Source: Sediminicoccus rosea (GTDB taxonomy: Bacteria; Pseudomonadota; Alphaproteobacteria; Acetobacterales; Acetobacteraceae). Taken from it: 64,000 nucleotides of DNA. Under the pieces are notes generated by a model that had not been told where the DNA came from, did not search any database, and saw only the letters and a list, made by a program, of their open reading frames with translations. The stretch is from assembly GCF_033547095.1 (NCBI RefSeq), contig NZ_CP137852.1:737501-801500 (forward strand), given 5' to 3'. The position numbers and the translations under genes are program-made. Position 1 is the stretch's first letter, and each line of letters starts with the position of its first letter. This document shows, in pieces, positions 1 through 21,234 of the stretch.

Positions 1-1726
<1,726 letters not shown>

Positions 1727-1841
1727 CCCCAATGCAGTGTTCGCTGGCAACAGCGACACACCGCACGCAGCACCAAACCCCACTTCACCCACCCACTCAA
1801 AACCAACCAATCCAACACCACCTGAACCACAGTTTTCGGTT

Positions 1842-1967
1842 CGGTGGCCTGGTGCCTATCGCGGAGTTGAAACACCCGATCCCATCCCGAACTCGGCCGT
1901 GAAACACTCCAGCGCCCATGGTACTGCCGCTCAAGCGGCGGGAGAGTCGGTCAGCGCCAGGCCACCC
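1842..1967 (+). rRNA. rrf: 5S ribosomal RNA
   Basis: This is a 5S rRNA gene about 115 bp after the 23S. The terminal helix is visible as GGTGGCCTGG (from 1843) pairing with CCAGGCCACC (ending 1966). The internal conserved segment with GATCCCATCCCGAACTCGG lies at about 1879-1897. The ends are set from the terminal helix, so plus or minus a few bases. It is in the same orientation as the 23S and is followed by tRNA-fMet, the usual alphaproteobacterial rrn order. Confidence 0.95.
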
Positions 1968-1990
1968 AACCGAAAACTCACAATCACCAC

Positions 1991-3748
<1,758 letters not shown>

Positions 3749-3831: not shown

Positions 3832-4926
3832 CTATCCGCCCCCCCGTCGCTGGCGCCGCTCCGCATAGGCCCGGTCCGCCAGCTCCCCTAGCTGCTCGCG
3901 CAGCTCCGAGATGTACGCACCATGTCGACCACCGCTGTGATAGTCGACCGCCTGGGCATAGTATCGCAGGGCAACCCGCGGGGTATGGCCGGCGACCTCT
4001 GCCGCATCGAAGGCGGCCTCCGGCGAGCGGTTCTTGGCGGTCTCGGTGAGCCATTTCCGGGCCATCTGAGGCCCCTCCGCCACGCCTGTGAAATCCCGGT
4101 TCCGTCGCCGTACAACGCCCTCGAAACCCCGGTAGGTCAGTGGCTCACCGACCTTGCCCCACCAAAGCCAATCCTCCTCGGCAGGACCGCAAAGGTGGGG
4201 GCGCGCGAGTTCCAGGTAGTCCCGGACGATGGCGGCAACGACCGGGTGAAGGGGGTATTCCCGCCACCTCTTGTCCTTGGTCGCCGTCTCCCGAAAGCGC
4301 GCGATCATCTGCCCATTCCGGGTCATGCGGAGGTTCTCGCCCATCACCATCGACGAGATATCAGCGTGCCGCGGGCCGTAGACGTAAAGCATTGCCATGA
4401 TTGCCGCGTCGCGGAGGGCCTTCCACCGTTGGTCGCCGTCACGGTCGGTCAGTCCACGGGCATGCAGAGCCTTGGCGTGCTCCAAAAGGTCGCCGCTGTC
4501 ATGTGGGGTAAAGGGCTTGGGCTCGGTCGGGAAGAGCTCGTCCAGCGAGCGGCCGCCGGGGCGCAGGATGAAACTCGTGTCCGTCCCCGGCGCGAGGAAC
4601 GCGAGGATGGCGTGAAGGCTCATGAGATAGAGTTTGATCACCCCGTTCTTGCGCCCCATGTCGCGCATCGTGCGGACCCAGCCGGCGATACGTTCGGGCG
4701 ACGGGCGCTGGCCCGGCCCCTCAGCCGGGTCCAGCTGGCCCGACCGGTCCAGCCAAGCCAGCCAGATTCCATAGGCGCGCGCGTAGCCCTTACGGGTCCA
4801 TGGCCTCAGCCTGAGCGCCTTACCGGCATCGTCCCAGACATCGTAGGAGACGGTATTCGCCAGCTCCCAGGCGGCGCGATCAGCCTCCGGCCAGGCGGCC
4901 GGCTTGCGTCCAGCCATCCGGTTCAT
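3832..4926 (-). CDS. Tyrosine recombinase 2 (364 aa)
   Basis: This is a phage-type integrase-family protein that would cut and rejoin DNA through a tyrosine. The visible catalytic elements are the first arginine in YGPRHADIS, a degenerate second box (GPQMARKW, with Gln where His of the usual HxxR stands), and the closing GHTPRVALRYY with the nucleophilic tyrosine. An N-terminal SAM-like core-binding region precedes them. Its ATG overlaps the stop of the 612-aa recombinase by 4 bases (ATGA), so the two are translationally coupled. Because the box II histidine is replaced, activity may depend on the partner recombinase; that is inference. Confidence 0.85.
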   Translation of the reverse strand: MNRMAGRKPAAWPEADRAAWELANTVSYDVWDDAGKALRLRPWTRKGYARAYGIWLAWLDRSGQLDPAEGPGQRPSPERIAGWVRTMRDMGRKNGVIKLYLMSLHAILAFLAPGTDTSFILRPGGRSLDELFPTEPKPFTPHDSGDLLEHAKALHARGLTDRDGDQRWKALRDAAIMAMLYVYGPRHADISSMVMGENLRMTRNGQMIARFRETATKDKRWREYPLHPVVAAIVRDYLELARPHLCGPAEEDWLWWGKVGEPLTYRGFEGVVRRRNRDFTGVAEGPQMARKWLTETAKNRSPEAAFDAAEVAGHTPRVALRYYAQAVDYHSGGRHGAYISELREQLGELADRAYAERRQRRGGG

Positions 4927-6761
4927 CGGCCGCGCCCCCAGCCGCGCATCGGGCCTGGGCGCCCCTGCCGAGGAAGCGGGCTGCCCGGGCCAGGGCGCTG
5001 CGGCAGTCCGGTGGCGCGCCCCTCGGCGATGATCTCGCCCAGGCGGCGGCCTGCCTCCCAGGTGTTCATGCGGCGATAGAATTTCATCGCAGTGTCGAAG
5101 GTGGAGTGACCGAGGATCGCCCGGACATCATCGATCGCGTGCGGATCCCTCTTGAGGATTAGCGCACCCGCGATCACCCGAAAGGCGTGCGGGTTCACCC
5201 GAAAGCCCAGAACGTCGGCGATGGTCTCGGTGATCGTTGTGCCAAAAGCCTGGATGTCGCGGGGCTTGGCCGGCCCCGGTTTCCCCGGGAAGACCCACTG
5301 GCTGTTCGCGTTCGGCAGCAATGGGCGGAAATCGTCGAGATACTCCTTGAGCAGGCGGCGTGTCTCCGGGCGGATCGGCATCTGCAGCCCCTGACCGGTC
5401 TTGGAGGTGCGTGCGAAGTGGAACGAACCGCTGGCCTCCGGCGAAGCCTCCGCGGGCAGGCGAAGCTCCTGTCCGAGGCGCATCGTCGTGAGGTCCGTGA
5501 TGCGCACCGGGGCGTGCAGCTCGATCTCAACGGCGGCCGCGATGCTCGCGAGCCAGGCGGCCTCGACGGGGCGAGGCGCTTGAGTGACCTTGCCCTTGCT
5601 CCATCCGTCACGGAGGCGCCGCGCGTTGTGCATGATCTGCATCGGCAGCTTGAGAAACATGGCCAGGATGCGGGGGTCCTCCAGGCGCTCCAGAATGCGC
5701 TCGTGGCGGTCGATCAGGCCGGTGCGGCGCTCAGTGACCGCAACCTTCTTGAAGAACGCCTTGAGCTCCGCGCGCTCCTCTCCGTCGACGCCGCAGTAGT
5801 TCGCCACCGAGAAGATCGTGGCCACCATGCTCATGAGGTGGTCGTCGAACTTCTTGTCCTGGATTCCCTTGCGCGCCATGTGCCAGCTGAAGGACCGCCT
5901 GAAGACCTTGGGCGAGAGGATCACGCGCAGGCTGTTCAACTGCTCCATCGGCACGCCGGCCTGGTGTGCACCCCAGAGCAGCGCCCGGACCCCGTAGCGG
6001 CGCGTGCGGACGGTGCGGGCGCTGCGCGGCTGTTTGGGAAGAACCTTGCGGAAGGTAATCACGGGCTCGTCCTCCGGTTCGTCCTCGGACCAGATGTCGC
6101 CGGCCGTCCGGATGTCGCAGAGATAGGTCTCGACCTCCTTCTCGAGCGGCGCCGGATAGGCATCGAAGGGGAGGGACATCTGGCGCGGGTTGGGATTGGC
6201 GAGGCCCGCCTGCGGCCACCCCTCGATGGTGCGGGCGGCGCGGCGCCAGAGGCCTACCACGCGGCGCATATGGTCCGTCTGCTTGTTGCCCCCGCGAGAG
6301 ACCTCGCGCTCGAGCGCATAGGCGGCGAGGTGGTCCTGGCTGGTCTCCGCCGGAGCCACGCCCTGACGCGCCAGCCAGTTCACGAAGGCCTTGAGCCGGT
6401 CGAAGTCATGTCCCTCCTGCGGCAGGCGCTCGAGCAGGGCGACCCACGCCGGATCCTCCACAGGCGCCAGGGCCTCGCGACCCTTGAGCAGCCCAAAGCG
6501 GCGCAGGATGGCGCGGAGGTTGGACCGATAGCCGTTCAGCGTCGCCGCAGACTTGAGACCCAGTTCCGCCGGCGACGCGCGCTCCAGCAGGGCGAGCGAT
6601 TTCTGCGGGTGGAGCACCAGCGATTCGGGCGGCTGGCCCTGGAGGCGCGCCAGCGCCTGGAGGGCAGACCGCAGCTGGCGACGCCGGCTGTCAGAAAAAC
6701 CGGCATCCGTAGAAATACGGTTCAGAGCCTCAGCAATGGTGGGTAAATCACGTTTGCTCAC
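4923..6761 (-). CDS. Tyrosine recombinase 1 (612 aa)
   Basis: This is a long tyrosine recombinase. The C-terminal catalytic domain shows PVRITDLTTMRL (Arg I), NPHAFRVIAG (HxxR), and LGHSTFDTAMKFYRR (third box and nucleophile Tyr). About 380 residues precede the catalytic part, longer than most integrases; paired recombinases of about 360 and 630 aa are known from Tn554-type elements, though there the gene order differs. The GTG start at 6761 is favoured because AGGAGAG lies 8 bases upstream. It is cotranscribed with the 364-aa recombinase (4-bp overlap) and lies 120 bp after a small HTH gene. An inverted repeat at 6801-6843 sits just upstream. Confidence 0.88.
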   Translation of the reverse strand: MSKRDLPTIAEALNRISTDAGFSDSRRRQLRSALQALARLQGQPPESLVLHPQKSLALLERASPAELGLKSAATLNGYRSNLRAILRRFGLLKGREALAPVEDPAWVALLERLPQEGHDFDRLKAFVNWLARQGVAPAETSQDHLAAYALEREVSRGGNKQTDHMRRVVGLWRRAARTIEGWPQAGLANPNPRQMSLPFDAYPAPLEKEVETYLCDIRTAGDIWSEDEPEDEPVITFRKVLPKQPRSARTVRTRRYGVRALLWGAHQAGVPMEQLNSLRVILSPKVFRRSFSWHMARKGIQDKKFDDHLMSMVATIFSVANYCGVDGEERAELKAFFKKVAVTERRTGLIDRHERILERLEDPRILAMFLKLPMQIMHNARRLRDGWSKGKVTQAPRPVEAAWLASIAAAVEIELHAPVRITDLTTMRLGQELRLPAEASPEASGSFHFARTSKTGQGLQMPIRPETRRLLKEYLDDFRPLLPNANSQWVFPGKPGPAKPRDIQAFGTTITETIADVLGFRVNPHAFRVIAGALILKRDPHAIDDVRAILGHSTFDTAMKFYRRMNTWEAGRRLGEIIAEGRATGLPQRPGPGSPLPRQGRPGPMRGWGRGR

Positions 6762-6881: not shown

Positions 6882-7193
6882 TCATCGCCGTCCCTCCTCC
6901 CAGAGCTTGCGGACGTCCTCAGGGCGGTAGTACCGGCGGCCGCGGATGCGGATCGGGGCGAGCACACCCTTCTGCTCCCAGTTCGACAGCGTCCGGCTGC
7001 AGATCCCGAAGAGCCACGCGACGTGGCCGGGCGTGACGAGAGGCTCGGGGACGGCGCTCTCCGAAAGCGGGGGCGCCTCAGGGGCCGAGGCACCAAATTG
7101 GCGCGCTACATCCGATCGGGCTGAAGCACCCGGCTGCCGGGAAGGGCGCGTCTGAGAAGCGTTCGGAGCGCCAGAGCTGGTACGCCCCGTCAT
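6882..7193 (-). CDS. Small MerR/excisionase-type HTH protein (103 aa)
   Basis: This is a small DNA-binding protein. The first 50 residues are low-complexity and probably disordered. The C-terminal half reads LVTPGHVAWLFGICSRTLSNW, then EQKGVLAPIRIRGRRYYRPEDVRKLW. This is the winged HTH of the MerR/excisionase class: helix-turn-helix, a basic wing with RYY, then a PEDV helix. The ATG at 7193 has GGGGAG five bases upstream. It is the first gene of a same-strand set with the recombinases, so it probably acts as recombination directionality factor or as repressor of that operon; this role is inferred from position. Confidence 0.75.
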   Translation of the reverse strand: MTGRTSSGAPNASQTRPSRQPGASARSDVARQFGASAPEAPPLSESAVPEPLVTPGHVAWLFGICSRTLSNWEQKGVLAPIRIRGRRYYRPEDVRKLWEEGRR

Positions 7194-7799: not shown

Positions 7800-8078
7800 T
7801 CAGGCCAGCGGTGGAAAGCCTCGGTGCGTGAAGAGCATGTTGACCGCCTCGACCAGGAGGTCGTGGGCGTTCTTGCGCTCCTTGGCCGCGAGGATCCTCA
7901 GCTGCTCCCATGCGTCTGGGTCCAGCCGTAGGGTCTGGCCGATCCGCCCATCGGTTGTGCTCCCCCGCAGAATTCTCGAACCGCTGCGCCGCTTGGGTGC
8001 GGGAGGCGGAGGGTCTGGGAGTTCGAGTGCCGGTTGGGGCTGATTGGCTGGTAGTGCCGGTTTCGGAGGCTTGCTCAT
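7800..8078 (-). CDS. Ribbon-helix-helix DNA-binding protein (92 aa)
   Basis: This is a small basic protein with a proline-rich N-terminus (about residues 1-30) and a C-terminal ribbon-helix-helix-like segment: GRIGQTLRLDPDAWEQLRILAAKERKN followed by AHDLLVEAVNMLF. The pattern of a short beta strand (TLRLD) and two helices matches small plasmid and island regulators, including antitoxin-like and ParG-like proteins; no partner toxin is adjacent. The start at 8078 (MSKPPK) is chosen over 8126 because the upstream residues look like untranslated sequence. A palindromic site at 8184-8199 lies upstream. Its function is likely regulatory, but the target is unknown. Confidence 0.65.
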   Translation of the reverse strand: MSKPPKPALPANQPQPALELPDPPPPAPKRRSGSRILRGSTTDGRIGQTLRLDPDAWEQLRILAAKERKNAHDLLVEAVNMLFTHRGFPPLA

Positions 8079-8183
8079 GGCAGGCCGCCATCGCCGGCGG
8101 GTGGGAAGGGGGCGAGCAGCCGGCATGCGGCCACCCGCCCCAGAGCGCGCGGCATGGCGCCGGCGCCCAGTAGTGCTGGGGTC

Positions 8184-8613: not shown

Positions 8614-11526
8614 ATGCAGAAGAAATCGCCATTGCGTATCCGCCAGGACGTCGAAAGCGCGCGAGGCCGGGTTGGTCTCCTGGTCGGGGTCCTCCGCGAG
8701 AATCAGAGAGAGCGGCGATGGCGGCTGGGCGAAGAATGCGAGCGCGCCGCCGACGGTCTCTCGCGGCTGCTGGAGGAGCACGCCGTCCCCGAGGACTACA
8801 AGGTCGCGGTCATCGGCCGTTTCAAAGCCGGCAAGTCCTCCTTCGTCAATGAGCTCCTTGGCAGCCGGCTGGCCGGCGAAGACACAAATCCAGAAACCGC
8901 CGCGGTTACCACGTTCCGGGCCGGTGAGCGGATCGTCGCGAAGATCCGGCTCATCGCGAGGGAGACATGGGACGAGCTCAGGGCGCTCCATGCGAAAGAT
9001 CCAACCGATCCTGCCGCTTACAGAATCGCGAACTGGCTGAAGTTCTCCGGGAAGGATTCGAAGGCATCGGCATCCGGCCCTGTTGAGGTTTTCGACATCG
9101 GCTCGATCGAGAGAGAGCACATCCGGGCAGGCGGCCACACGCTCGTCATCGCTCTGCCGCAAGGCAACGGTGCGGAAGAGGACCGGAAAGCCGGTGCCGA
9201 ATTCCGACGTCGGATCAAGCAGTTCACGTCCAGCACGAGACCTCACCACTGTCTCGTGGAATCCATCGAAATCGAGACGCCGTCGCAAATCCTGCAGCAA
9301 GGCGTTATCCTGGTTGATACGCCCGGCCTCGACGACACCGAGCGCTTCCGCATCCATCTGACCGAGCGCGCTGTCGAGGGTGTCGACGCAGTCCTCTTCC
9401 TGACCAAATCAGGCGGTTCCTACGGCCAGGCTGAGAAGGACTTCTTGCTCCGCCTTCTGCGCAAGGGAACGGTCAAGCAGCTCATCTTCGTCGTCACACA
9501 GGTGGACCAGACCTACGAGCAGCATGTCCGCCAGGCACGGGATCAGGATGAAGACGCCGAGCCCATTTCCGTTCGGATCGCTGCGGAGCGGCGTCGCATT
9601 CGCGCGGAGATCGAGGCAACCCTGGATGAACTAGCGGGTGATGCGGGCACTGTTTCGACCCAGCGCTTTCGTGAGCAGCTCAGCGCAGTCGAAATCGCAT
9701 TCACCTCGGCAGCGAACCACCGCGACCATGCCCGCGGTGAGCGGATCGCGCACCCGATCGATCCCGCAGACCCAGGCGGCCTGAACCAGGTCAAGAGAAC
9801 GCTTTTCCGGATTCTATCTACGGAATCCCGCTTGGCCACGTCCAAGCGAGCCATTGAGCAAGGCACCCGGTCGATCCTTCAGGAGATGCTTGGCGCAATC
9901 GAAAAGCGCCGGCTTGTCGTTGATGGCATGCGGAACAGGGAGGTGGCCGAAGAAAAGCTGGCTACCTTTCGTCAGCAGTTTGAGGAGGCTGGCGTTCGCT
10001 TCACAGAGGTAACGCGGCAGGCATCGGAGGTCCTGAAGAAGCAACTCGTGACGAAAGCGGCGGTCGGTGCCGTGGTGGCGCAGCTCGCCTCGTCCGAAGC
10101 GGATAGTGTCTTGGCTGCCTACGAGACCGATGATGCAGGACGCCACTGGAAGACGCGGCGGAGTGGCCATTGGGGCTACATGTCGGACCTGCAGAACCGT
10201 GTGGCAAACCGCATCTTTCCGCGCGTGGCGGAACACCTCGAGAGCCAAACGGGCGAGTTCGCAGTCTTTATCGATACCTTCCGTGCACACCTCGGAGGCC
10301 TCTCGGACGAAGCAGCGAAGTCCATTCGCGATCTTGAAATCGGGGAGGAACTGCAACTCGACATCGCCTCCAGCCTCGAAGAGTTCCTGGAAGGTGCGCT
10401 GGAGACACAGCAGGAGTTGCTGGAGGGCGAGGAGGCCAAAATCGTCGCGCTTCTGGAGGATTTCGTCGACGAATCTGTAGAGGCAACCATCTCGGCGGCG
10501 CGGGAGCGGGTATCAGGCGTGTGGGGGCGTGGAACAACGACGGCGCAGACAGGCGAGGTCCGTACATTCTATCGAGAGGTCCGCGGCATTTTGCGGAACG
10601 CTGTTAAGGGCCATGTCGAGATACGTTTTACGGAATTCGCACAGACCCTGATCGAACAGGCGGACGCCCTGCCGGAGCGGTCCATGAGCCAAGTGAGGGC
10701 CGAAATTCAGCGCGCTTCTGCTGACATCAAGGCAGCCGCCGAGGCGACCTTCGAGGGGCAGAAGGAGATATTTATTCGTCTGGTCGCGGAGCTGAAGGAG
10801 GCGGCCGAGGCCGCATTGAGGGATGTCGAATTCCTGCTGACGGAAGACCAAGCGATTGCCTTGGACGCACCAGCTTCCCCCGTGCTGCTCTCGGCTCCGT
10901 CGGGTGGAGAAGGCGCGCCAAGTCAGACGAGTTCTGCCAGCCAGGAGAATGAAACCCGCCGGCCATTTCCTGCCACACCTGCGCCAACAGGCTCGGCTGA
11001 AGCCGGGACCGAGGATATCGTAGCTGCGATCCGGCGACAGGCGACGCGGTGTGTGGGGCGTCATATCCTGCGCAACGGGGATAAGAATTGGCCGTTTTCC
11101 CGTATCTTCGCGGCAGAATTTCTCGGCGGCGCCGCAGAGATTTGGCTGATTGACCCCTATCTGGCGCAACCCCACCAGCGCCGGAACCTGCGCGAATTCC
11201 TGGACGCCGCTGCTGCGGCAGCGAGGCCCAAGATCGTCAACATTGTGACGCGCGAGGTTTCGGATTCAGGAGCGGAAGCGGACCAGTCCTTTTACGATGC
11301 ACTGGATCGGACCTTCTTCGAGAAAGCCGGGATGAAGCTCACGCTCACCTTTGATGAGGACATCCATGACCGTTTTGTCGTGCTCGACAACGGCGTCGTC
11401 TTCAAGCTGGGCCGCGGTCTTGACCTTTATAAGCCGGTGGCCGGTCTGGCGGGGCGCGACCCGGCGCTGCGACAGACCCGCGCCTGCGAAATCGACGTGT
11501 TCGCGCCCGGCGATCGCGAGGGCTGA
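8614..11526 (+). CDS. Dynamin-like GTPase with C-terminal MITD1-C-like domain (970 aa)
   Basis: This is a large GTPase of the dynamin/YjdA-like class. Residues 64-76 hold the P loop (VAVIGRFKAGKSS), 235-239 DTPGL (G3) and 295-298 TQVD (G4). A long helical middle follows (about 400-780). The last 130-170 residues read as a MIT_C/MITD1-C (PLD-fold) domain: EIWLIDPYLAQPHQRRNLREF, then IHDRFVVLDNG, then KLGRGLDLYKP and RACEIDVF. In human MITD1 the matching segments have WIEDPYI, IHDREIRFNNG, IGRGLDYFKKP and TTVDIF (from memory). No signal peptide is seen; it is likely cytoplasmic or membrane-associated. GGGG lies just upstream of the ATG. It converges on the methyltransferase gene with about 85 bp between. 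A conflict or defence role is inferred from the neighbours. Confidence 0.82.
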   Translation: MQKKSPLRIRQDVESARGRVGLLVGVLRENQRERRWRLGEECERAADGLSRLLEEHAVPEDYKVAVIGRFKAGKSSFVNELLGSRLAGEDTNPETAAVTTFRAGERIVAKIRLIARETWDELRALHAKDPTDPAAYRIANWLKFSGKDSKASASGPVEVFDIGSIEREHIRAGGHTLVIALPQGNGAEEDRKAGAEFRRRIKQFTSSTRPHHCLVESIEIETPSQILQQGVILVDTPGLDDTERFRIHLTERAVEGVDAVLFLTKSGGSYGQAEKDFLLRLLRKGTVKQLIFVVTQVDQTYEQHVRQARDQDEDAEPISVRIAAERRRIRAEIEATLDELAGDAGTVSTQRFREQLSAVEIAFTSAANHRDHARGERIAHPIDPADPGGLNQVKRTLFRILSTESRLATSKRAIEQGTRSILQEMLGAIEKRRLVVDGMRNREVAEEKLATFRQQFEEAGVRFTEVTRQASEVLKKQLVTKAAVGAVVAQLASSEADSVLAAYETDDAGRHWKTRRSGHWGYMSDLQNRVANRIFPRVAEHLESQTGEFAVFIDTFRAHLGGLSDEAAKSIRDLEIGEELQLDIASSLEEFLEGALETQQELLEGEEAKIVALLEDFVDESVEATISAARERVSGVWGRGTTTAQTGEVRTFYREVRGILRNAVKGHVEIRFTEFAQTLIEQADALPERSMSQVRAEIQRASADIKAAAEATFEGQKEIFIRLVAELKEAAEAALRDVEFLLTEDQAIALDAPASPVLLSAPSGGEGAPSQTSSASQENETRRPFPATPAPTGSAEAGTEDIVAAIRRQATRCVGRHILRNGDKNWPFSRIFAAEFLGGAAEIWLIDPYLAQPHQRRNLREFLDAAAAAARPKIVNIVTREVSDSGAEADQSFYDALDRTFFEKAGMKLTLTFDEDIHDRFVVLDNGVVFKLGRGLDLYKPVAGLAGRDPALRQTRACEIDVFAPGDREG

Positions 11527-11611
11527 ACAGCACTTCGTAGGCGCGGCCGGCGATCCTGATGGGCAGCGCGGCCCCCATTTCGGCTGAACGGTTGGGGGAA
11601 CCGCGCAGGGC

Positions 11612-11909
11612 CTATGTTGAAGCCGCGGGCGGTGCCTCATCCGTCATCCCCCGGAACGCGCCCGGCCAGCCGCCGTGCTCCTCGATGATCTGGTCGATCT
11701 TCGGCATCAGTTCGGCTGTTCGGGTCAGCGCCAGGATGATGCGGCGGTAGTGGAGGATGTCTTGGTCCGTGAGGAGGCGGCCGGGATTGGCTTTCTTGCC
11801 GGATTTCTTGGTAGCGCGGTCCTTCAACCATTTCTGCGCGGGTTGATAGCCGCCGATGTGGAAGTTCCAGGCGAGCTCGGGGACGGTCTCGAACCAGCGC
11901 GTGCCGCTG
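11612..11909 (-). pseudogene. 3' part of the IS-split DNA methyltransferase gene
   Basis: These bases encode the last 97 residues of the methyltransferase whose main part lies at 13147-16419. The reading starts GTRWFETVPELAWNFHIGGY, then QPAQKWLKDR, a motif typical of the C-terminus of type ISP-like restriction-modification enzymes (FHIGGYQ...KWLKDR). Joining 13150 to 11905 after removing the IS and one copy of the 4-bp duplication gives RVYIS-GTRWFET in one frame with no lost base. The fragment has no start codon or ribosome site of its own: the open frame seen from 11935 begins in IS sequence. Confidence 0.9.
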
Positions 11910-11935
11910 TGACGTGCCCCCCTTGATGTATCCAC

Positions 11936-12826
11936 TCAGACGGAGAGTCCTCTGCGTTGATGTCTGATGGTTGATGGGATGGCAACGGGGTTGGGGGCAT
12001 GCCCCCAACCCGGTTGGCCGGCGATCTCGGCGGGGGGCCGCCCGCCCAGCTTCGAGTGCGGCCGGATGGTGTTGTAGTCCTGCCGCCAGGTGGCCAGTAC
12101 CGCCCGGGCCTGCGGCATCGACGTGAACAACGTCTCGTTGAGGCACTCATCCCGCAGGCGGCCGTTGAAGCTCTCGACGAACGCGTTCTGGGTGGGCTTC
12201 CCGGGGGCGATGTAGTGCCACTCCACCTGCCGCTCCTGCGACCAGCGCAGGATCGACGTCGACGTCAGTTCCGTGCCGTTGTCACTGACCACCGCCAAAG
12301 GCTTCCCGCGGAGCGCCACAATCGCATCGAGTTCACGGGCCACCCTCGCACCCGACAGCGAGGTGTCGGCCACCAGTGCCAGGCATTCGCGTGTGAAGTC
12401 GTCCACCACGCACAGGATGCGGAACCGCCGACCACAGCCCAGCGCGTCGGACACGAAGTCCAGCGACCAGCGCTGGTTCGGCCCCTGCGGCAGCACCATC
12501 GGCGCCCTGGTGCCCAGCGCCCGCTTACGGCCCCCGCGGCGGCGCACCTTGAGCCCCTCCTCGCGGTAGAGCCGCAGCAGCTTCTTGTGGTTCGGCGCGA
12601 GGCCCTCGCGGGCCAGCAAATAGCCCAGACGCCGATACCCGAACCGGCGACGCTCGGCCGCCAGCTCCCGCAGCCGCTGCCGCAGGCCAGCGTCATCCGC
12701 CCGGCTCGGCTGATACCGCGCCACCCGCCGGGCGATGCCGATCAGATCACACGCCCGACGCTCGCTCAGCCCGTGACACTCCCGGGCATGGGCGACCGCG
12801 TTCCGCTTCGCGCCGGGCGTCACCAT
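11936..12826 (-). CDS. IS3-family transposase OrfB (296 aa)
   Basis: This is the catalytic half of the transposase. An N-terminal HTH_21-type region ([16 protein letters not shown], then [13 protein letters not shown]) precedes the rve integrase core. The DDE residues are visible in RWSLDFVSD (first D), VVSDNGTE (second D) and [13 protein letters not shown] (E), with the Trp-Arg rich end usual for IS407-type elements. It overlaps orfA by 7 bases. The overlap carries seven A on the coding strand (12832-12826), a typical -1 frameshift site producing the OrfAB fusion. The ATG at 12826 follows the A run. All three catalytic residues are intact. Confidence 0.95.
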
Positions 12827-13086
12827 TTTTTTGTCGAGATGTCCTTCAGCACCGCGATGTCCAGCATCGCTTCCGCCAGCAGCTTCTTGAGCTTGGCGTT
12901 CTCCTCTTCCAACGTCCGCAGCCGCTTGGCCTCAGTCACCTCAAGGCCGCCAAACTTCGCCTTCCACTTGTAGAAGGTCGCGCCGCTGATGCCGTGCCGC
13001 CGGCACACATCCGCCGTAGCCGCACCGGCCTCCTGCTCTTTCAAAATCCCGATGATCTGCTCATCGCTAAACCTGCTGCGCTTCAT
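12820..13086 (-). CDS. IS3-family transposase OrfA (88 aa)
   Basis: This is the DNA-binding half of the IS407-type transposase. It begins [20 protein letters not shown], with an HTH ([20 protein letters not shown]) recognising the terminal repeats. A leucine-zipper-like segment ([20 protein letters not shown]) ends in LKDISTKKW. The length and pattern are standard for the group. It is coupled to orfB by the A7 frameshift site. The copy at 20887-21171 is disrupted by an insertion; this one is open throughout. Confidence 0.94.
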
Positions 13087-13146
13087 TCGTCCGTCCTTCG
13101 CTGGATCGGACTCTACCGAAAAATGGCACCACTTCAGGGGAGCACG

Positions 13147-16100
13147 TCAGCTGATATAGACGCGTCCGGCCTGGAAGGTCGGGGCCTGGGAGACGCGGGC
13201 TTCGCCGCTGCCAGCGAGGCGGATGCCCTTGGGGTCGGCGAAGATCGGCAGTTTCTCGGGGCCGAAGCGATGTTCGGCATCGAGCAGATGGGTGGCGACG
13301 AGATCGGTGCCGATCGGGACCAGCGCTTCGAACAGCGCTGCGCTGCCGGGTAGCGGCACGCGGGCGAAATCGCTCTTCAGATAATCGGCGTAGCGGCTGC
13401 GATAGGCGGGTGAATGCAGCACCGCGTAGATCCAGTCGAGCAGGTCGCGCGGGCCGAAGCTGTGACCGGATTCGCCGCGCTCGCGGCGGTTGGCGAACAT
13501 CGCGGTCTGGGTCGGCTTAGGGGGCAAGACGCCGGTTAGTGCGGCCTGCTTCGGCCCCTCAACGCAATCGTCCCAGGCGAGGCCGGTCAGCACGGCGACG
13601 CGCTTGGCAAAGATGGGCGCTATGTTGGGAAGCGTGCGGGTTTCGGTACCCTGGGGCTTGAGCCAAAGAGGGAATGCTATCGTCATGTCGTAGTTGCCAA
13701 CGATCTTGTGAGCTGGCGGAATGTTGGTAACAAATACGGCAAACGGTTCAGTTGAACTTCGAGTTGCAAGAAATGCAACACTTTTTCCTGATAAATGCTG
13801 CATTACATTCAGGCGCGGATTTGTCACTACATCAGGATGCAAGAGCGTATATCTGTCATCGAAAGGCCGAAAAAGCACGCGTCGTATTTCGCATCGCCAA
13901 TTCAGTTTGTTAAGCCGCGCCTTGGCACGCCCGAAATCCCACTGGTTAGATTTGCAAAGCTCAAAATTGTTCCTCAGCATTGATTCTGTTGAAGCCGCAG
14001 AAGTAAGCTGCTCAATATTTTGTTCAACAGTGAGGGCATCAAACCCAATCGCAAACTCGTCCTGCTGAGATTTGAAACCAGCACCGTAAAAGTGAGTTTT
14101 GTCACTCATCCAATTTCCTGTGCCGAAAATCTCAGCAGCAGATTGCCATTTTGGCCAGTCTAAATCGGTGCGGTCGCGAGGCACGAACGCTTGTGTGATG
14201 TAGTTTTGTGAGAGAATAGACCAACTCATGTCATTGAGAGAGCTCATCAGCTCTTTTGTTTTAACGCCTCGTTTTCCCCACAAATCGGTATATTTGATAT
14301 TAGATTGATTATCACCAAAACGCGATCCTATAAATATAGAAACGCCTTGCTGAATATCGAATACGTTCTCGTCTTTACCCCCATCTGGAGCGACCTCCTT
14401 TTTTCTAGAGTCGCCATGCAAGTTAATGATATTAATTTTAGGCAAGTTATCACCCAGGGAGCGCCGAAGATCCCGAAATATTCGTCCATCAAGATAGCCA
14501 TTATTTGTAATAAATCCAGCAATACCTAGATTATTTTTAATAATTTGTAGCTCTGCTAGTGCAATAAACTTAACGTAGTCGTCAGACAGGGCTTGTATCT
14601 GAGTCTCTTCGGTTCGTACTGTTGTCTTATAATTATTAATGATGTCCCGTACCCAAGGTGTATTGTTATCTGATCGGCTGTTGTACGGGGGGTTTCCAAC
14701 TACAACCGTGAATCGCGTTTCCTTCGCATCATTCGCAGCCTTCGCTTCATGGGCCAACGCATCGCTCATGAAGGCGAGCTGCATGTCTAGGTCCTGCGCC
14801 GGTTCGAGCGCATTCGTAAGATAGATCTGCGCACGAGCGTCGCTACCGAAACGGTAGCCGGTGTCGCTGAGCTTCAGCCCCAATTTGACATGGGCAATGG
14901 CATAGGGGGCCATCATCAACTCAAAGCCGGTCAGGCGCGGCAGTAGGTGTTTCGGGACATAGGCGTTCCAAAGCGCCTTGATGTCGGCTGCGCTGCGTCT
15001 CTCCCTCTGCCATTTGGCCAGCATCGTCTTGTGGATGAGGTCGACGCACTCCACGAGGAATGTGCCGGTGCCGGTGGCGGGATCGAGAATGCGGACGAAC
15101 GGATCGGCGAGGGCGGCGCCTGCGGGCAGTTTAATGGGCTTGGCGCCGCCGCGCGCAGCGCTCGCCGCGATCACCTCGCCCCAGGTCGCGGTGGAGGCGA
15201 GGCCGTCGGCCAGATGAAACTCGCTGCGCAATACTTCGTCGACCGAGCGGACGATGAAGCTAACAACGGGCCGCGGCGTATAGAAGACGCCGCGCTTGAC
15301 CTTCTGTTCGGCGTCATACTCCTTAAGAAAAAGCTCGTAAAAATGGATGACGGGGTCTTCGTCGGGGTTCTTGCGATCAAAATCTGCCAACACCGCGTCC
15401 ATGTCGGCGTTGCGCAGCAGCTCGACGACCTCGCCGATGCCAAGTTCGTCGAAGTCGAGTTTCGCGGCGGCTTTCCCCGTCTTCTTGCCGCCGGCTTCAA
15501 TAAATTGACCGAGCATCTCCTTCAGGAAGGGGCTGGTGCCGGCTACATTGGCGGTGACGTCGTCCTGGGTCAGTCCACCCGAGGCTCGGCTGATTCGGGT
15601 GGAGAGCAGCCCATAGGCGACCGTCTGCGCGTAGGTGTCGGCAAAGCCCGCTGGCGTCAGATCGTGGATTAGCGCCTCCTTGAATGCGGCGTGGAGCTTC
15701 ACCAATGAGCCATTGTCCGTCTGCGCCTCGATCAACTCCGTGGCGCGCGCCCGGATTCGGCGGGCGAGGGCCGCCAGCGCCTTGGCCATCGCCTTCGAAT
15801 CGCGAACGACGGTGCGCGTATCGGCACGGGTGAAGGCCGCTGACCATTGGGCGCGCCAGTGTTCGGTGTCGGCGGGATTGTTCGGCCAGCGCAGCTTGGC
15901 GGCCAGCGTACTCTTGGTCAGCTCCAGCCGCCGTGGCGTGTCATCACCGTCCCACCCGAGGATCTTCAGCGTCGCAGCATTGCCGCCGAGCGGATCGTCC
16001 TGGAAATGCGCAAACGCCAGCCGCCGGTCGGCGCCCGCGCCGGTCGAGGTGATGAACAGCAGGTCACTTTTCAAGAAAGCCGGCCGGGACGGATCGTTCG

Positions 16101-16419
16101 ACGCCTGCCGCTTCTTAACGGTCAGGCGGCCAAGGATGTTGCGGACGATGGTCTGCGGCAGCCGCTTGTGCGGCAGGTTGAGGAAGAACACGCCCCAGGG
16201 CTGGTTGTCGGTCAACTTGCGCAGTTGCTTGATTTCAATCGCGCCGCCGACCGCATCGGCCTTCAGCCCCAGCTCTGGCGGCGTGAAATCAAACGTCGCC
16301 TCCTCGAAGTTGGCTTCATTGATCGGCCAGTCGAGTTCCTCCTCGAGATAGGTGAGCAGCCCCGGGAAGTCGGTGATAGCGTCGAGGTTGGTGGGCGGCA
16401 TCAGTTGAGTTCCATCCAT
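13147..16419 (-). pseudogene. N6-adenine DNA methyltransferase, truncated by IS (1090 of about 1187 aa)
   Basis: This is a methylase subunit of a restriction-modification-like system. Residues 377-391 (RGVFYTPRPVVSFIV) and 446-454 (DPATGTGTF) form the SAM-binding motifs, and 575-578 (NPPY) is the amino-methylase catalytic motif. An extended N-terminal helical region and a C-terminal target-recognition part surround them; the layout resembles the methylase half of type ISP enzymes. The start may be 16401 rather than 16419, since the upstream helicase stop overlaps it as TGATG. The frame ends at the IS, whose first bases TGA supply the stop, removing the last 97 residues. Residues about 590-910 (13680-14650) are encoded by unusually AT-rich DNA, a sign of exchange of the recognition domain. 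Whether the truncated protein still works is open. Confidence 0.88.
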
Positions 16420-19400
16420 GCCTTGAGCAGCGGCTTGACGCCGACCGGGGCCTGCATCTGCTTGAGGTAGCCGTTGCGAATATGCTTCTCGACCGCCTCT
16501 CGCGCCTCAGCGAGCGTGGGCCGCGGCGTCACGATCCGGCGTGGCGTTTCCGGCGTCGAGCGGATGAGGTCAGCGATGCGGTTGACGTCCTCGGCGATCT
16601 CGCCGGAGGCCGCGTCGCGAAAATACCATCGGACGTCGCCCGGGCTGGCGGTCCAGGCGTCGGCACCAAGCGACGGGTCAGCATCGCGCATGCGGACCGG
16701 CAGCGACCAGCAGAAGAAGGTGCCGGTGGCGCCCGGCGCTTCACGGCCACTGAAGATGCGGTTCGGAAAGCCGTCGAGCCGCTCGGCCAGCTTGGGATCA
16801 GCGTTGAGGATATCGGCGAGTTCGAGGCGCAGCGCCTCCTCCGGGCTCGTCGTGCCCTCGTAGTTGGCATTGAAGTCCTGGAGGTCGTCATAATCGTCGG
16901 CCGCGGTGAGCAGTTTTCGGCCTTCAATGCCGAACAGCTTGGAGATCCGCAGCGTCTTGCCGGCAATGCGGCTGTAGAGCGCGAGAAGGCGGTCGAGGTC
17001 GTTGGGCGGCAAAAAGTTCCAATAGGCGACGTGACCACGCAGTGGTGCCTGCTCCGGATGATCCGCAACGATCGCCGCCTCGATCGTCGGGTTCATGCGG
17101 CGGTCGACACGGCCGATGCGCTGCATCAGCCGCACAGGATTCCAGTGCAGGTCGTAGTTGATGAGGCGCGTCGCATCCTGGAGGTTGAGGCCTTCCGACA
17201 GCACGTCGGTCGAAATCAGAATGCGCGTCTCATTTGGCGCGACTTTGCGCGAGTTGCTGCCGTTGTAGTAGGGCGCAAAGCGCTTGATGACCTCGCCGCG
17301 GTCGAGTTTGGTTGTGGAATCGACCTGGGCGATGCCGGTCAGCCCGGCCTTTTCCAATTGCCGCTTGATGTGGCGAGCGGTCACAGTGAATTCGGTGAAT
17401 ATCAGAACCTTATGTTTGCTGAGCACTGGATCGGTCTTGAGCAGGTCGATCAGCGCCGCCAGCTTGCCATCCTGCTCGGCCGTGAAATCACGGAGGGTTT
17501 CCAGCAGGTGCGCGAGCTGCGTCAGGTCCTCATAGGTCTCGTTGACGATGGCGGGGACGTCGTACACCTCGTCGTTTAGCGCCTCTTCCGCCTCGATCAT
17601 CTCGGGCGAGACGAGGTCCTCGCCGGCCTCGGCCTCCTCCTCCTTCCAGGCGGCGCGCACCTTGACGATATGATCGAGCAGGTCGGCGTGACGATCCTTC
17701 CACTGCGCAAGGCGGCGCTTTTCGAGCTCGGTTCCCGCGTTCCGCTCGACGAAGGCGAGCAGCTTGACGAACAGGTTCTGACAGCTGTTGTCGAAGGCCG
17801 GGGTCGAACTCTCCAGTCGCTTGAGAAATCCGGTGCGGATCAGAGTGACAACCTGCTTAAGGCGGCCACGATCGAACTCGGCAGCCGCGCCCTGACCTTT
17901 TCGCCGAAACTCTTCCGGATTGTAGATGGCCAAGCTGAACAGGGGTTTTTTCTTATCGAAAGACGCATCCACCAGATCGAGTAGCTTCACCTGGAGCAGC
18001 GAGTAGCTGTAGTTCGCCACCTTCGGGTCTTCGCGGGTGGGAAACTGGGCTGGCGCTCCCTTCGCCTCCCGCTTCTGGCTCTCTTTCACGTAGGCACGGC
18101 TGCGCTGCACTACTAAGTTTTGAACGAGCGGGTCCGAGGCGAAGATGTCGTGCGCTTCGCCCCCCGTGACATCCTCGTCGACACCTGCGGGTTGGTCTCC
18201 CGGATCGCCTGAGGCCAAGGCGATCCGCTTTTCGAGTTGTCGGAAATGGCCCCGAAGAGAATGGATGCCAAGCGGTGCTTGTTTCAGCTTGGTACCGTCG
18301 CCCGACCAAATTTCCACCAGGTGCATCAGATCGAGCAACGAGTTGTTCACAGGCGTCGCCGTGAGCATAAAGACCTGCTTGCCGGTCGCTAGCCGCTGCA
18401 GCACGCGATACCGCGATTCCTTGCGCTCCCCCTCGCCAGCGATGCCCGGATTCCGAAAGTTATGCGCTTCATCGATGATGAATGCGTCGGCCCGCTCAGC
18501 AATTTGCGCGAGCTGCCGGTCCATGCCGGGCCGGTTGAGATCTGTGTGGTTCAGGATGACAAGGCCCGAGAAGACGCCATCGGCGAGGTCGGGCATGAAG
18601 CGACGAAGGTTGGCGATCCAAACTGACTCGCGAGCCGATTTAGGAACCAGCAGGACGACGTTCTTCTTCTCGTGGCGCACGAGCCGCTCCAGCAGCATCA
18701 GACCAACGAATGTCTTGCCCAAGCCGACGCCGTCACACAGGAATGCACCGCTGAACGCGTCCGCGATCTCGAGCAGCCGCCCATATCCCTCGCGCTGGTA
18801 GCCGTCGAGCTGAGGAAAAATGACTGATTCATGCTGTTCCCATTCCGACGCCGAGAACTCACGGTCGCGGAACAGCTCACGCAATGAGTGTGCATAGACA
18901 TCGAAAGGCGAAAAGGACTGGATGTGTCTATCGATCACCCGAAGCATGTCGAGGGTAACGTCCTCGGCTTCGTCCCAATGCTCGTCGTACCACTCTTGAA
19001 GAACTACTACAGGCTGACCCGTGATCTGAACGTTTAGCTCAATGTTCTGCGTGAGGCCGGGGCGGGTGAAGTTCGACGATCCGACCAGCGCTGCGGAACC
19101 TACCACTTCAAGACGGGCGTGAGTGATGTAGGCCTTCGCGTGGAACCGCTCCTTACGATAGATTCGAAACTTGATCTTGCCGCTCCTAACGGCGTCTGCA
19201 ATCGCTGGAACACCGGTCAGGAAGTCGTCCTGCTCCTTTTCGGCTTCAACGCTTGCATCTAACCTAGCGACGCGCTCAGTGACGGCTCGCTCGAATGCCT
19301 TGCGGGTGCGGCGGCTGACTTCATCCCCCATCAGGACGCGCATTTCGTCGACGCGCTGCCACTCCCCTTCAAGCGCTATTAGCGAGCCGATTTCAAAGTA

Positions 19401-19532
19401 AGCCGTCGCGACATCGATCGCGCGTGAAATCTGACACCAATCGCGGATGTAGCGGAGCGCCCTCCACTCTTCGTCACTATTGTCGACGATGAATAGCTCG
19501 CTGCCTGCACGAGCACTCTTACGCTTTGGCAT
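16401..19532 (-). CDS. PLD-nuclease/SNF2 helicase fusion (1043 aa)
   Basis: This is a predicted nuclease-translocase of a defence-type system. Residues 130-156 hold a phospholipase-D HKD motif (RFHAKAYITHA, then VGSSNFTRPG). From about 240 a superfamily-2 SNF2 helicase follows: CDGVGLGKTF (266-275, Walker A), DEAHNFRN (354-361), TATPVNN (391-397), and in the C-terminal lobe VLIFTEFTVTARHI and RIGRVDRRMNP. The start at 19532 is chosen over 19556 because GGGGG lies five bases before it. The stop overlaps the methyltransferase start, so the two form an operon and probably one complex. DISARM also pairs a PLD protein, SNF2 helicase and N6 methylase, but as separate genes with DrmA/DrmB, which are absent here. 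Confidence 0.88.
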   Translation of the reverse strand: MPKRKSARAGSELFIVDNSDEEWRALRYIRDWCQISRAIDVATAYFEIGSLIALEGEWQRVDEMRVLMGDEVSRRTRKAFERAVTERVARLDASVEAEKEQDDFLTGVPAIADAVRSGKIKFRIYRKERFHAKAYITHARLEVVGSAALVGSSNFTRPGLTQNIELNVQITGQPVVVLQEWYDEHWDEAEDVTLDMLRVIDRHIQSFSPFDVYAHSLRELFRDREFSASEWEQHESVIFPQLDGYQREGYGRLLEIADAFSGAFLCDGVGLGKTFVGLMLLERLVRHEKKNVVLLVPKSARESVWIANLRRFMPDLADGVFSGLVILNHTDLNRPGMDRQLAQIAERADAFIIDEAHNFRNPGIAGEGERKESRYRVLQRLATGKQVFMLTATPVNNSLLDLMHLVEIWSGDGTKLKQAPLGIHSLRGHFRQLEKRIALASGDPGDQPAGVDEDVTGGEAHDIFASDPLVQNLVVQRSRAYVKESQKREAKGAPAQFPTREDPKVANYSYSLLQVKLLDLVDASFDKKKPLFSLAIYNPEEFRRKGQGAAAEFDRGRLKQVVTLIRTGFLKRLESSTPAFDNSCQNLFVKLLAFVERNAGTELEKRRLAQWKDRHADLLDHIVKVRAAWKEEEAEAGEDLVSPEMIEAEEALNDEVYDVPAIVNETYEDLTQLAHLLETLRDFTAEQDGKLAALIDLLKTDPVLSKHKVLIFTEFTVTARHIKRQLEKAGLTGIAQVDSTTKLDRGEVIKRFAPYYNGSNSRKVAPNETRILISTDVLSEGLNLQDATRLINYDLHWNPVRLMQRIGRVDRRMNPTIEAAIVADHPEQAPLRGHVAYWNFLPPNDLDRLLALYSRIAGKTLRISKLFGIEGRKLLTAADDYDDLQDFNANYEGTTSPEEALRLELADILNADPKLAERLDGFPNRIFSGREAPGATGTFFCWSLPVRMRDADPSLGADAWTASPGDVRWYFRDAASGEIAEDVNRIADLIRSTPETPRRIVTPRPTLAEAREAVEKHIRNGYLKQMQAPVGVKPLLKAWMELN

Positions 19533-19556
19533 CAATCCCCCTGTTTCGGACGCCAA

Positions 19557-19864: not shown

Positions 19865-20893
19865 TTATCTGAGCTTAGTTCTCCATAAGCCGAACCCTGT
19901 CCCCGCATCACCCAGTACAGAACCAGAGAACACATCAAGCCCACCGGCAATCGTCGGTGGGCTTTTTGTATTTCCGCCAACATCTTCCATACCAGCAGCA
20001 GCCAGCAACGCGCTGAGCTCACTCAACAGCTCCAGCCGTGGACGGCCGCCCTCCACCGCCGGCGGGTGCACCTCCACCCGCGCGATCAATGCACGCGCCG
20101 CCTCCAACACCTCCCGATCGCTCTGGGCCTCGATCCCCTCCCGAAGACGCGCCACCCGCGCCCGGTAGACCTCGGACAGGTTCGGATGCAGACGCGGCGC
20201 CGACTGACGCGCCTCTAGCGCGGCCAACTCCCCACGAAGCGCCTCCCGACGGGCGCCCAGCGCATCAAGCCGGTCTTGAAGCCCGGGAGCCCGAAGCCCA
20301 TCGGCGATGGCGTCGATCAAGCCATTCAGCTGCCGCTCGACTTGGTCGAGCTCCCGCCGACGAAGAGAAACCCGATCCCCGCTCTCGGCCGAAAGCCGGT
20401 TCCACTCGGCCGTGAACTCCGCCACGAAGGTCGCGACCGCATCAGGCTCCATCAGCCGGGTGCCCAGCGCCTCCAGCACCTCGGCCTCCACCCGGCTGCG
20501 CCGAGTCCTGACTTTGTTGGTGCAAGTGCCCTGACGCTCGGCCGCCTTGCAGCCCATGCAGTCCTTGCCGTTGATGACGTAGCTCCCGCCGCAGACCCCA
20601 CAGACGACCTTGCCGCTCAGAAGCGATACGGCGCGGCGATGTTGCCAAAGCGTCTCTGGGCCATCGCCGCCCTCGCGGGCCAGCAAGTAGCCCAGACGCC
20701 GATAGCCGAATCGCCGACGCTCGGCCGCCAGCTCCCGTAGCCGCTGCCGCAGGCCAGCATCGTCCGCCCGGCTCGGCTGATACCGCGCCACCCGCCGGGC
20801 AATGCCAATCAGATCACACGCCCGACGCTCGCTCAGCCCGTGACACTCCCGGGCATGAGCGACCGCGTTTCGCTTCGCGCCGGGCGTCACCAC
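19865..20893 (-). pseudogene. Chimera of IS OrfB N-terminus and serine recombinase C-terminus
   Basis: One open frame of 342 codons joins two unrelated halves. Codons 1 to about 75 equal the start of the IS3 OrfB (to [10 protein letters not shown]). The rest equals the C-terminal half of the serine recombinase, from GDGPETLWQHRR through the zinc ribbon and coiled coil. The join falls in GCCCTCGCG (20669-20677, plus strand), a 9-base string found at the matching place in both parents (2825-2833 and 12602-12610). The resolvase domain is missing, so the protein cannot recombine DNA. The ending differs from the left copy (FGLWRTKLR instead of FEPVTFRL), since the tRNA-derived codons are altered. 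Confidence 0.9.
19896..19985 (+). repeat. Right attachment repeat (attR) with second terminator hairpin
   Basis: CCTGTCCCCGCATC at 19896-19909 repeats the 3' end of tRNA-fMet. Just before it, CCGAACCC resembles a T arm but the rest of a tRNA is missing, so this is a displaced tRNA end. After it comes the same hairpin as at the left end (AAGCCCACCG 19937-19946, CGGTGGGCTT 19955-19964). The repeat marks the right edge of the 17.8-kb island and the left edge of a second, decayed element. Confidence 0.7.
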
Positions 20894-21234
20894 TTTTTTG
20901 TCGAGATGTCCTTCAGAACCGCGATGTCCAGCATCGCCTCCGCCGGCAACTTCTTCAGCTTGGCGTTCTCTTCTTCCAGCGCCCGGAGCCGTTTGGCCTC
21001 GGTCACCTCAAGGCCACCAAACTTCGCCTTCCATTTGTAGAAGGTCGCGCCGCTGATGCCGTGACGGCGGCACACATCCGCCGTCGACGCACCGGCCTCG
21101 TTGATCCGCTTTGCGGCTCAACTCTTCAATATCCCGATGATCTGCTCATCGCTGAACCTGCTGCGCTTCATTCGTCCGTCCTTCGATGGAGCGGACTCTA
21201 CCGAAAAATAGCGCCATTTCAGAGGAGCACGTCA
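20669..21234 (-). mobile_element. Truncated second copy of the IS407-type element
   Basis: The sequence matches the right part of the intact IS: its right inverted repeat ends at 21234 (GAGCACGTCA), and the orfA region and first quarter of orfB are present. The left three quarters of orfB and the left inverted repeat are gone, replaced at 20669-20677 by recombinase sequence. No matching target duplication can be seen, as expected after an IS-linked deletion. Confidence 0.88.
20887..21171 (-). pseudogene. Broken IS OrfA copy
   Basis: The start reads [15 protein letters not shown] and then runs into TGA, because extra bases (around 21098-21122) replace the EQEAG codons found in the intact copy. 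Downstream the frame recovers as [20 protein letters not shown] to the end KDISTKKW. The slippery A7 of the intact copy is AAAAAAG here, so frameshifting would also be weakened. It is non-functional. Confidence 0.85.

Follow-up and report, generated by a model that had tools for sequence, protein, structure and literature searches.

A rare dynamin-like GTPase with a BrxL-type C-terminal domain, found in a tRNA-bounded island of Sediminicoccus rosea, as a candidate accessory effector of restriction systems

The stretch of DNA analysed here (64,000 nucleotides of Sediminicoccus rosea, contig NZ_CP137852.1 of RefSeq assembly GCF_033547095.1, positions 737,501 to 801,500 of the forward strand; hereafter the window, in whose numbering coordinates are given unless a locus is named) contains an island that is probably inserted at a tRNA gene. 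The island carries a dynamin-like GTPase with a C-terminal MIT_C (BrxL-type, PLD-like) domain (8614..11526, plus strand), a PLD (HKD)-SNF2 helicase (16401..19556, minus strand) and an interrupted N6-adenine methyltransferase (MTase) with a type ISP C-terminal specificity domain (13147..16419, minus strand). An initial annotation, made from the sequence alone, had described a dynamin-like GTPase of 970 amino acids, a PLD-nuclease/SNF2 helicase of 1043 amino acids and an interrupted adenine MTase of about 1187 amino acids, the latter two forming an operon on which the GTPase gene converges, and had placed all three in a tRNA-inserted island. This description was borne out in every part by the domain searches, by the 19 bases shared between the helicase and MTase open reading frames (ORFs), by the insertion found in the MTase gene and by the repeated 3' end of the tRNA gene.

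Residues 64-296 of the GTPase were recognized by the Pfam family Dynamin_N (E=4.6e-20; 72.8 bits at a cutoff of 27), and the protein has the P-loop, DTPG and T/N-K/Q-x-D motifs characteristic of the dynamin superfamily. In 14 aligned members of the family GRFKAGKS, DTPG, TQxD and H918-D-R920 were invariant. The GTPase domain is followed by a long middle part and by a tail, not mentioned in the initial annotation, in which Pfam identified the MIT_C domain with its HDR motif (residues 828-963, 11095..11502, plus strand; E=2.8e-22) and which also matched the BrxL model of PADLOC. Matches in the PDB included the bacterial dynamin-like protein 2j68, and 5owv. In none of the 14 GTPases did a 19-residue window reach 1.6 on the Kyte-Doolittle scale (the highest value was 1.58), and the missing transmembrane-like segment counts mildly against a membrane-inserted dynamin.

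The tail was compared with its relatives. Residues 799-963 of the GTPase aligned to positions 524-693 of the PADLOC BrxL model, which are the model's own C-terminus (E=5.8e-19), and among the 23 plasmid records matched by the tail of a related GTPase (locus L011), 17 were labelled brxL. DP, Q, N, T, HDR, G and G-x-GLD did not vary among seven tails compared, four of them from GTPases and three from plasmid-borne BrxL proteins. A profile built from these seven tails found structures of human MITD1 (2ymb, 4a5z) with E values around 1e-41, the same HDR and GRGLD residues being aligned. The BrxL-type tail is plainly homologous to the MIT_C domain of human MITD1, which links BREX with a eukaryotic cytokinesis protein. 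MITD1 binds membranes and is not known to be catalytic, whereas BrxL is a DNA machine; the evidence from the tail therefore cuts both ways. In type 1 BREX a DNase domain with an HRD motif replaces LonP in 1030 of 2913 taxa bearing BrxL, and this domain of BrxL has been proposed to be an active DNase (PMC12839542).

The GTPase is rare. It was found in one of 150 genomes at E≤1e-20, in one of 398 at E≤1e-40 and in one of 299 at E≤1e-60, each time the centre genome itself, and no relatives were present in the viral contigs and phage records searched. Two short peptide patterns, run against contigs of genomes, yielded 30 loci, 14 of which (L019-L032) were dropped as short matches around the P-loop only, and a further full-length relative (L002) came from a plasmid search. 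After omission of an 88-residue fragment (L017) from the 17 loci L002-L018, 16 usable relatives remained, the closest being 76% (L003) and 61% (L004) identical to the GTPase of the window. All ten genomes checked had a single copy at E≤1e-30.

Within 10 kb of the GTPase, restriction-type genes were found in 11 of the 16 loci: type III in five, type 1 BREX in two, Hma-like genes in two, and a methylase with an HNH protein and McrBC in one each. In nine loci (L006, L008, L009, L010, L011, L012, L014, L015 and L018) they are same-strand neighbours, adjoining the GTPase gene directly or across small ORFs only. A type III res gene adjoins the GTPase in L010, L011, L012, L014 and L015, in L011 with a 4-base overlap of the two ORFs. 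The mod gene lies upstream in four of these five loci, broken in L014 and reduced to an 80-residue remnant in L015; it was not seen in L010, where the contig offers 2.7 kb of upstream sequence. In the two BREX loci (L008 and L018) brxC and pglX flank the GTPase gene at distances of 47-76 bases. Extension of L018 (as L059, from Aquabacterium) revealed BrxA, BrxC, the GTPase, PglX, at least three unassigned ORFs, PglZ and a LonP-type BrxL, a nearly whole BREX operon in which brxB was not identified. Three ORFs between pglX and pglZ (L059 13413-17869) had no PADLOC match at E≤1e-5.

The remaining partners are of other kinds. In L006 the order is HmaB-like methylase, BrxHI/HmaA-like helicase, GTPase and GHKL ATPase, and L007 has, besides a WYL regulator and a match to GHKL, an HmaB-like methylase and an HmaC-like ATPase on the opposite strand. 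The GHKL ATPases behind the GTPases of these two loci (L006 12826-14793, L007 12834-14789) are 96% identical; one comes from a Vicinamibacteria metagenome-assembled genome and the other from Cognatazoarcus, and the identity reflects either a recent transfer or a binning error. Locus L009 encodes a methylase of the same PADLOC family as that of the window (PDLC03610), then an HNH protein and then the GTPase. In L004 (Rhodoplanes) McrBC is accompanied by an integrase; a 1088-residue ORF nearby (L004 13881-17147) had neither a Pfam nor a PADLOC match.

A tree was built from 16 GTPases (that of the window and 15 relatives, with L015 and L017 excluded). The type III group was supported at 100/100 and the Hma-like pair at 100/99, whereas the two BREX copies were adjacent without forming one clade. 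The GTPase of the window grouped with L003 and L004 (100/100), followed by L009 and L013, both on long branches. Partner type tracks GTPase descent only in part, as would be expected of a module that occasionally switches host systems.

Seven genomes supplied 20 control regions, each 20 kb long. Of their 91 ORFs of 450 or more amino acids, the 65 that reach 510 were scanned with PADLOC. Two regions (L070 and L077) could be shown to hold restriction-type genes, a third (L066) being doubtful, and the count could be as high as five because mad2, DpdF and other matches lack an assigned region. With 11 of 16, one-sided Fisher tests, which ignore shared ancestry, gave P=0.0004 against 2/20, 0.0014 against 3/20 and 0.011 against 5/20; with the nine same-strand loci, P=0.012 was obtained against 3/20. 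The enrichment of the GTPase beside restriction genes is suggestive, and its placing inside operons is the stronger argument. Control region L070, which shares the contig of the Rhodoplanes locus and is 30-50 kb away from its GTPase, encodes HmaC-like and mREase_IV-like proteins (at 553-3552 and 11996-13684).

In the window itself, the helicase ORF comprises 1051 codons (1043 residues counted from the ATG in the initial annotation) and has the Pfam domains PLDc_2, SNF2-rel_dom and Helicase_C. The MTase has N6_Mtase, Eco57I and Type_ISP_C domains, matched the PADLOC model REase_MTase_IIG PDLC03610 with E=3.8e-141 and in the PDB matched LlaGI and LlaBIII. An IS3-family element (about 11910..13149, minus strand; ORFs 12820-13086 and 11936-12826, domains rve/rve_3/HTH_21, inverted-repeat ends placed by eye) lies inside the MTase gene, and 300 bases of it are repeated with 94% identity at 20669-20968. 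Since the methylase of L009 matches 14478-13273 and then 11908-11615, in order, the ORF 11612-11935 holds the C-terminal tail of the MTase (11612..11909, minus strand), and the two pieces of 1090 and about 97 amino acids add up to the predicted length. The MTase and the helicase look like a restriction-modification unit, in which the insertion probably impairs self-marking in this genome. No helicase orthologue was found at E≤1e-150 in 240 genomes apart from the window's own. Plasmids gave 498 matching records at E≤1e-5, 31 of them across at least 80% of the length. In eight of the 31 (26-29% identity) the surroundings were examined: an annotated DNA methylase or methyltransferase is near the helicase in five (L044 and L047-L050), a protein with a TaqI-like specificity domain in L043 and nothing annotated as a methylase in L045 and L046, and none of the eight had a match to P0002 (the window MTase) or P0001. 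Members of the helicase family are thus common on plasmids, yet the exact pair of the window was found nowhere else searched.

Several known systems resemble parts of this locus. With its N-terminal HKD nuclease on an SNF2 helicase beside an N6 methylase the unit is similar to the Type-2 BR systems (PMC12839542) and to the HKD+Snf2 model of PADLOC (C3a139, E=4.4e-43 with the helicase). A full Type-2 BR system, which would also have a DUF499 ATPase and a DUF3780 protein, it does not seem to be, because a DUF499 match is missing (one query, the HmaC-like protein of L007, no match in the window at E≤1e-4). With LlaGI and LlaBIII the MTase shares methylase and specificity domains; unlike in these type ISP enzymes, no helicase or nuclease domain was matched in its chain and the PLD-SNF2 helicase is a separate gene, so that identity with a type ISP enzyme, in which a single chain combines all four functions (nuclease, helicase, methylase and specificity), was rejected. 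DISARM seems unlikely as well, the helicase scoring 137.6 bits with DrmD, far under the cutoff of 610; its scores were 22.9 bits with DrmC (cutoff 133) and 68.1 bits with DrmA in PADLOC, and DrmB had no match among the five window ORFs scanned, which cover the island in part. Nor is the unit BREX as far as three queries go: tblastn with BrxA, BrxC and PglX of L018 gave no match in the window at E≤1e-4, and the MTase matched PglX models weakly (22.8 bits).

The GTPase, too, has partial counterparts. It shares with BrxL proteins carrying the C-terminal HRD (HKD-type) domain in type 1 BREX the homologous C-terminal domain with HDR and G-x-GLD, and its family also occurs inside BREX operons. In contrast to BrxL, the tail is carried by a dynamin-like GTPase and not by an MCM AAA+ ATPase, and in L018/L059 a LonP-type BrxL is encoded on the same strand of the contig as the GTPase, which rules out a BrxL substitute there; the genome of L008 also has BrxL, on another contig. 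Bacterial dynamin-like proteins (BDLP 2j68, 5owv and Bacillus subtilis DynA) have the Dynamin_N GTPase domain in common with the window family, which differs by its MIT_C tail, its restriction neighbours and the lack of a transmembrane-like segment in the scan described above. The match to LeoABC of PADLOC (E=5e-8) is confined to residues 44-275 of the GTPase, and none of the five ORFs of the window that were scanned matched a Leo partner. Human MITD1 has MIT_C in common with the GTPase and an MIT domain in place of the GTPase domain.

The probable attachment site of the island is a tRNA-Met gene detected by ARAGORN (1991..2067, plus strand). Fourteen bases of its 3' end (2052-2065) are repeated identically at the right edge (19896..19909), beyond which recombinase-like DNA follows, and because these repeats bound it, the GTPase, helicase and MTase all belong to one stretch of about 17.8 kb. 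A serine recombinase gene (2024..3748, minus strand; matched in the PDB by TP901-1 integrase and by resolvases) runs over the tRNA 3' end, and two further ORFs (3832-4926 and 4923-6761, minus strand) are putative tyrosine recombinases by motifs seen by eye only; these two had no PDB match at E≤0.01. An empty site was not encountered, the flanks being never adjacent in the searched relatives where both turned up. The sequence 200-2067, probably the last part of an rRNA operon, is present twice in the genome. Left of the GTPase gene, two small minus-strand ORFs (6882-7193 and 7800-8126) appear by eye to be MerR-type excisionase-like and ribbon-helix-helix-like. Beyond the right edge, an ORF (19865-20893) combines the N-terminus of an IS3 transposase with the C-terminus of a serine recombinase and is followed by IS3 sequence up to 21234; the whole looks like what is left of another, related element at this tRNA.

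The explanation that we favour, tentatively and at somewhat less than even odds, is that the GTPase represents a rare and mobile family of effectors which methylation-based restriction systems use as an accessory or a backup, and that it works by means of its BrxL-type tail. It builds on the domains, on the conserved GTPase and HDR residues, on the recurrence beside restriction genes with nine same-strand adjacencies and on the tail shared with BrxL. In the window the MTase would mark self DNA and the helicase-nuclease would attack DNA that is unmarked. A phage-induced structure, or the restriction complex itself, may be where the GTPase assembles; turnover of GTP would drive or time this assembly, and the tail would execute, most likely by an attack on DNA. 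The effector role, a nuclease activity of the tail and any physical link of the GTPase to the MTase or helicase are inferred. Backup nucleases attached to BREX have been described (PMC12839542). The more specific proposal of a portable dynamin effector that forms oligomers, either on invading DNA or on a restriction complex that has stalled, and cuts with its BrxL-type tail, one GTP-driven backup weapon for unrelated methylation systems, we regard as doubtful. The initial annotation, right in what it observed, was half right in its interpretation. It had proposed a restriction-like layer with a membrane or abortive layer added, and such a two-layer view is reasonable because the GTPase family recurs beside restriction systems; the membrane part is possible, if less likely than an action on DNA.

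A number of points weigh against the favoured explanation. The HDR motif does not prove a nuclease, because human MITD1 has it too, and the D of HxRxxxxD varies among family members (D, N or S). In L013 the tail ends in a different reading frame, and the GTPases of L014 and L015 are cut short ahead of it. The GTPase gene of the window is convergent to the helicase and MTase genes and lies outside their operon. No restriction genes were seen among the ORFs scanned in five of the 16 loci (L002, L003, L005, L013 and L016), among them the closest relative, L003, the contig of which extends 1.3 kb downstream. The comparison with the controls has its own weaknesses. Matches not assigned to a region include a second mad2 (6.6e-15), DpdF (2.1e-95), HerA, GajA/Old and mad8; the tallies cover the first 25 of 90 and the first 25 of 62 families, and the second one lacks seven ORFs (four of L070 and one each of L077, L060 and L066). 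Eleven of the 20 control regions are on contigs of four GTPase loci, none overlapping a locus, and the controls were read by PADLOC in ORFs of at least 510 amino acids only, whereas the GTPase loci were read by Pfam, PADLOC and tblastn. For the nine same-strand loci P rises to 0.058 against 5/20, and counting by lineage (five of ten, in our own grouping) gave P=0.056 against 3/20 and 0.17 against 5/20.

Among the explanations, a DNA-acting effector was ranked first, a membrane role second and coincidence third. A membrane layer, in which the GTPase remodels or seals the membrane during infection and MIT_C binds lipid, with lysis delay or abortive infection as the outcome and the DNA left untouched, would suit a protein with a Dynamin domain, PDB matches to bacterial dynamin-like proteins and a tail homologous to that of the membrane binder MITD1. 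DynA of B. subtilis has a reported anti-phage effect, delaying phage lysis at the membrane (PMC8844932). We nevertheless consider this explanation unlikely: the 14 proteins scanned lack a transmembrane-like segment, the plasmid relatives of the tail are mostly BrxL and the neighbours are DNA-restriction genes. It is also conceivable, if still less probable, that the GTPase is a solo defence gene gathered in defence islands, in which case the restriction genes would not be its partners and the GTPase of the window would be unrelated cargo of the island. The five loci with no restriction genes in view, the widely different partner types, the convergent orientation in the window, the other surroundings of the close relatives L003 and L004 and the possibly higher control count would fit such co-residence. 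It accounts poorly for the position between brxC and pglX in two loci, for the type III res gene beside the GTPase in five and for GTPase branches that partly track partner type, the type III and Hma-like groups more so than the BREX copies.

A dedicated conflict system of the three genes, as the initial annotation had suggested, is very improbable. All three lie in one island, and in L009 the GTPase is paired with a methylase having the same best PADLOC model, with an HNH protein between them; a helicase may lie upstream in this locus, whose contig starts inside the methylase gene. Both partners together were present in none of the 16 relatives, the helicase being matched in one (L006, weakly) and the MTase in one (L009), so the GTPase did not recur beside this helicase-MTase pair; of the two closest relatives, L003 has no restriction genes in view and L004 has McrBC.

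The main interest of these observations lies in the family of the GTPase more than in this trio of genes. A dynamin with a BrxL tail near five kinds of restriction locus is described in neither PMC12839542 nor PMC8844932 as far as they were considered here; the main text of the former mentions neither dynamin nor GTPase, and a full-text literature search gave no description of a dynamin-MIT_C fusion. If the effector role is true, one module serving many restriction systems would be a testable case, and the family would also offer a direct test of the function of MIT_C in BrxL. The homology to MITD1 turns the choice between DNA and membrane into a question that could be answered with one purified protein. 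Should the proposal of a portable effector prove correct, a member of the dynamin family would act on DNA with a tail common to BREX and eukaryotic MITD1.

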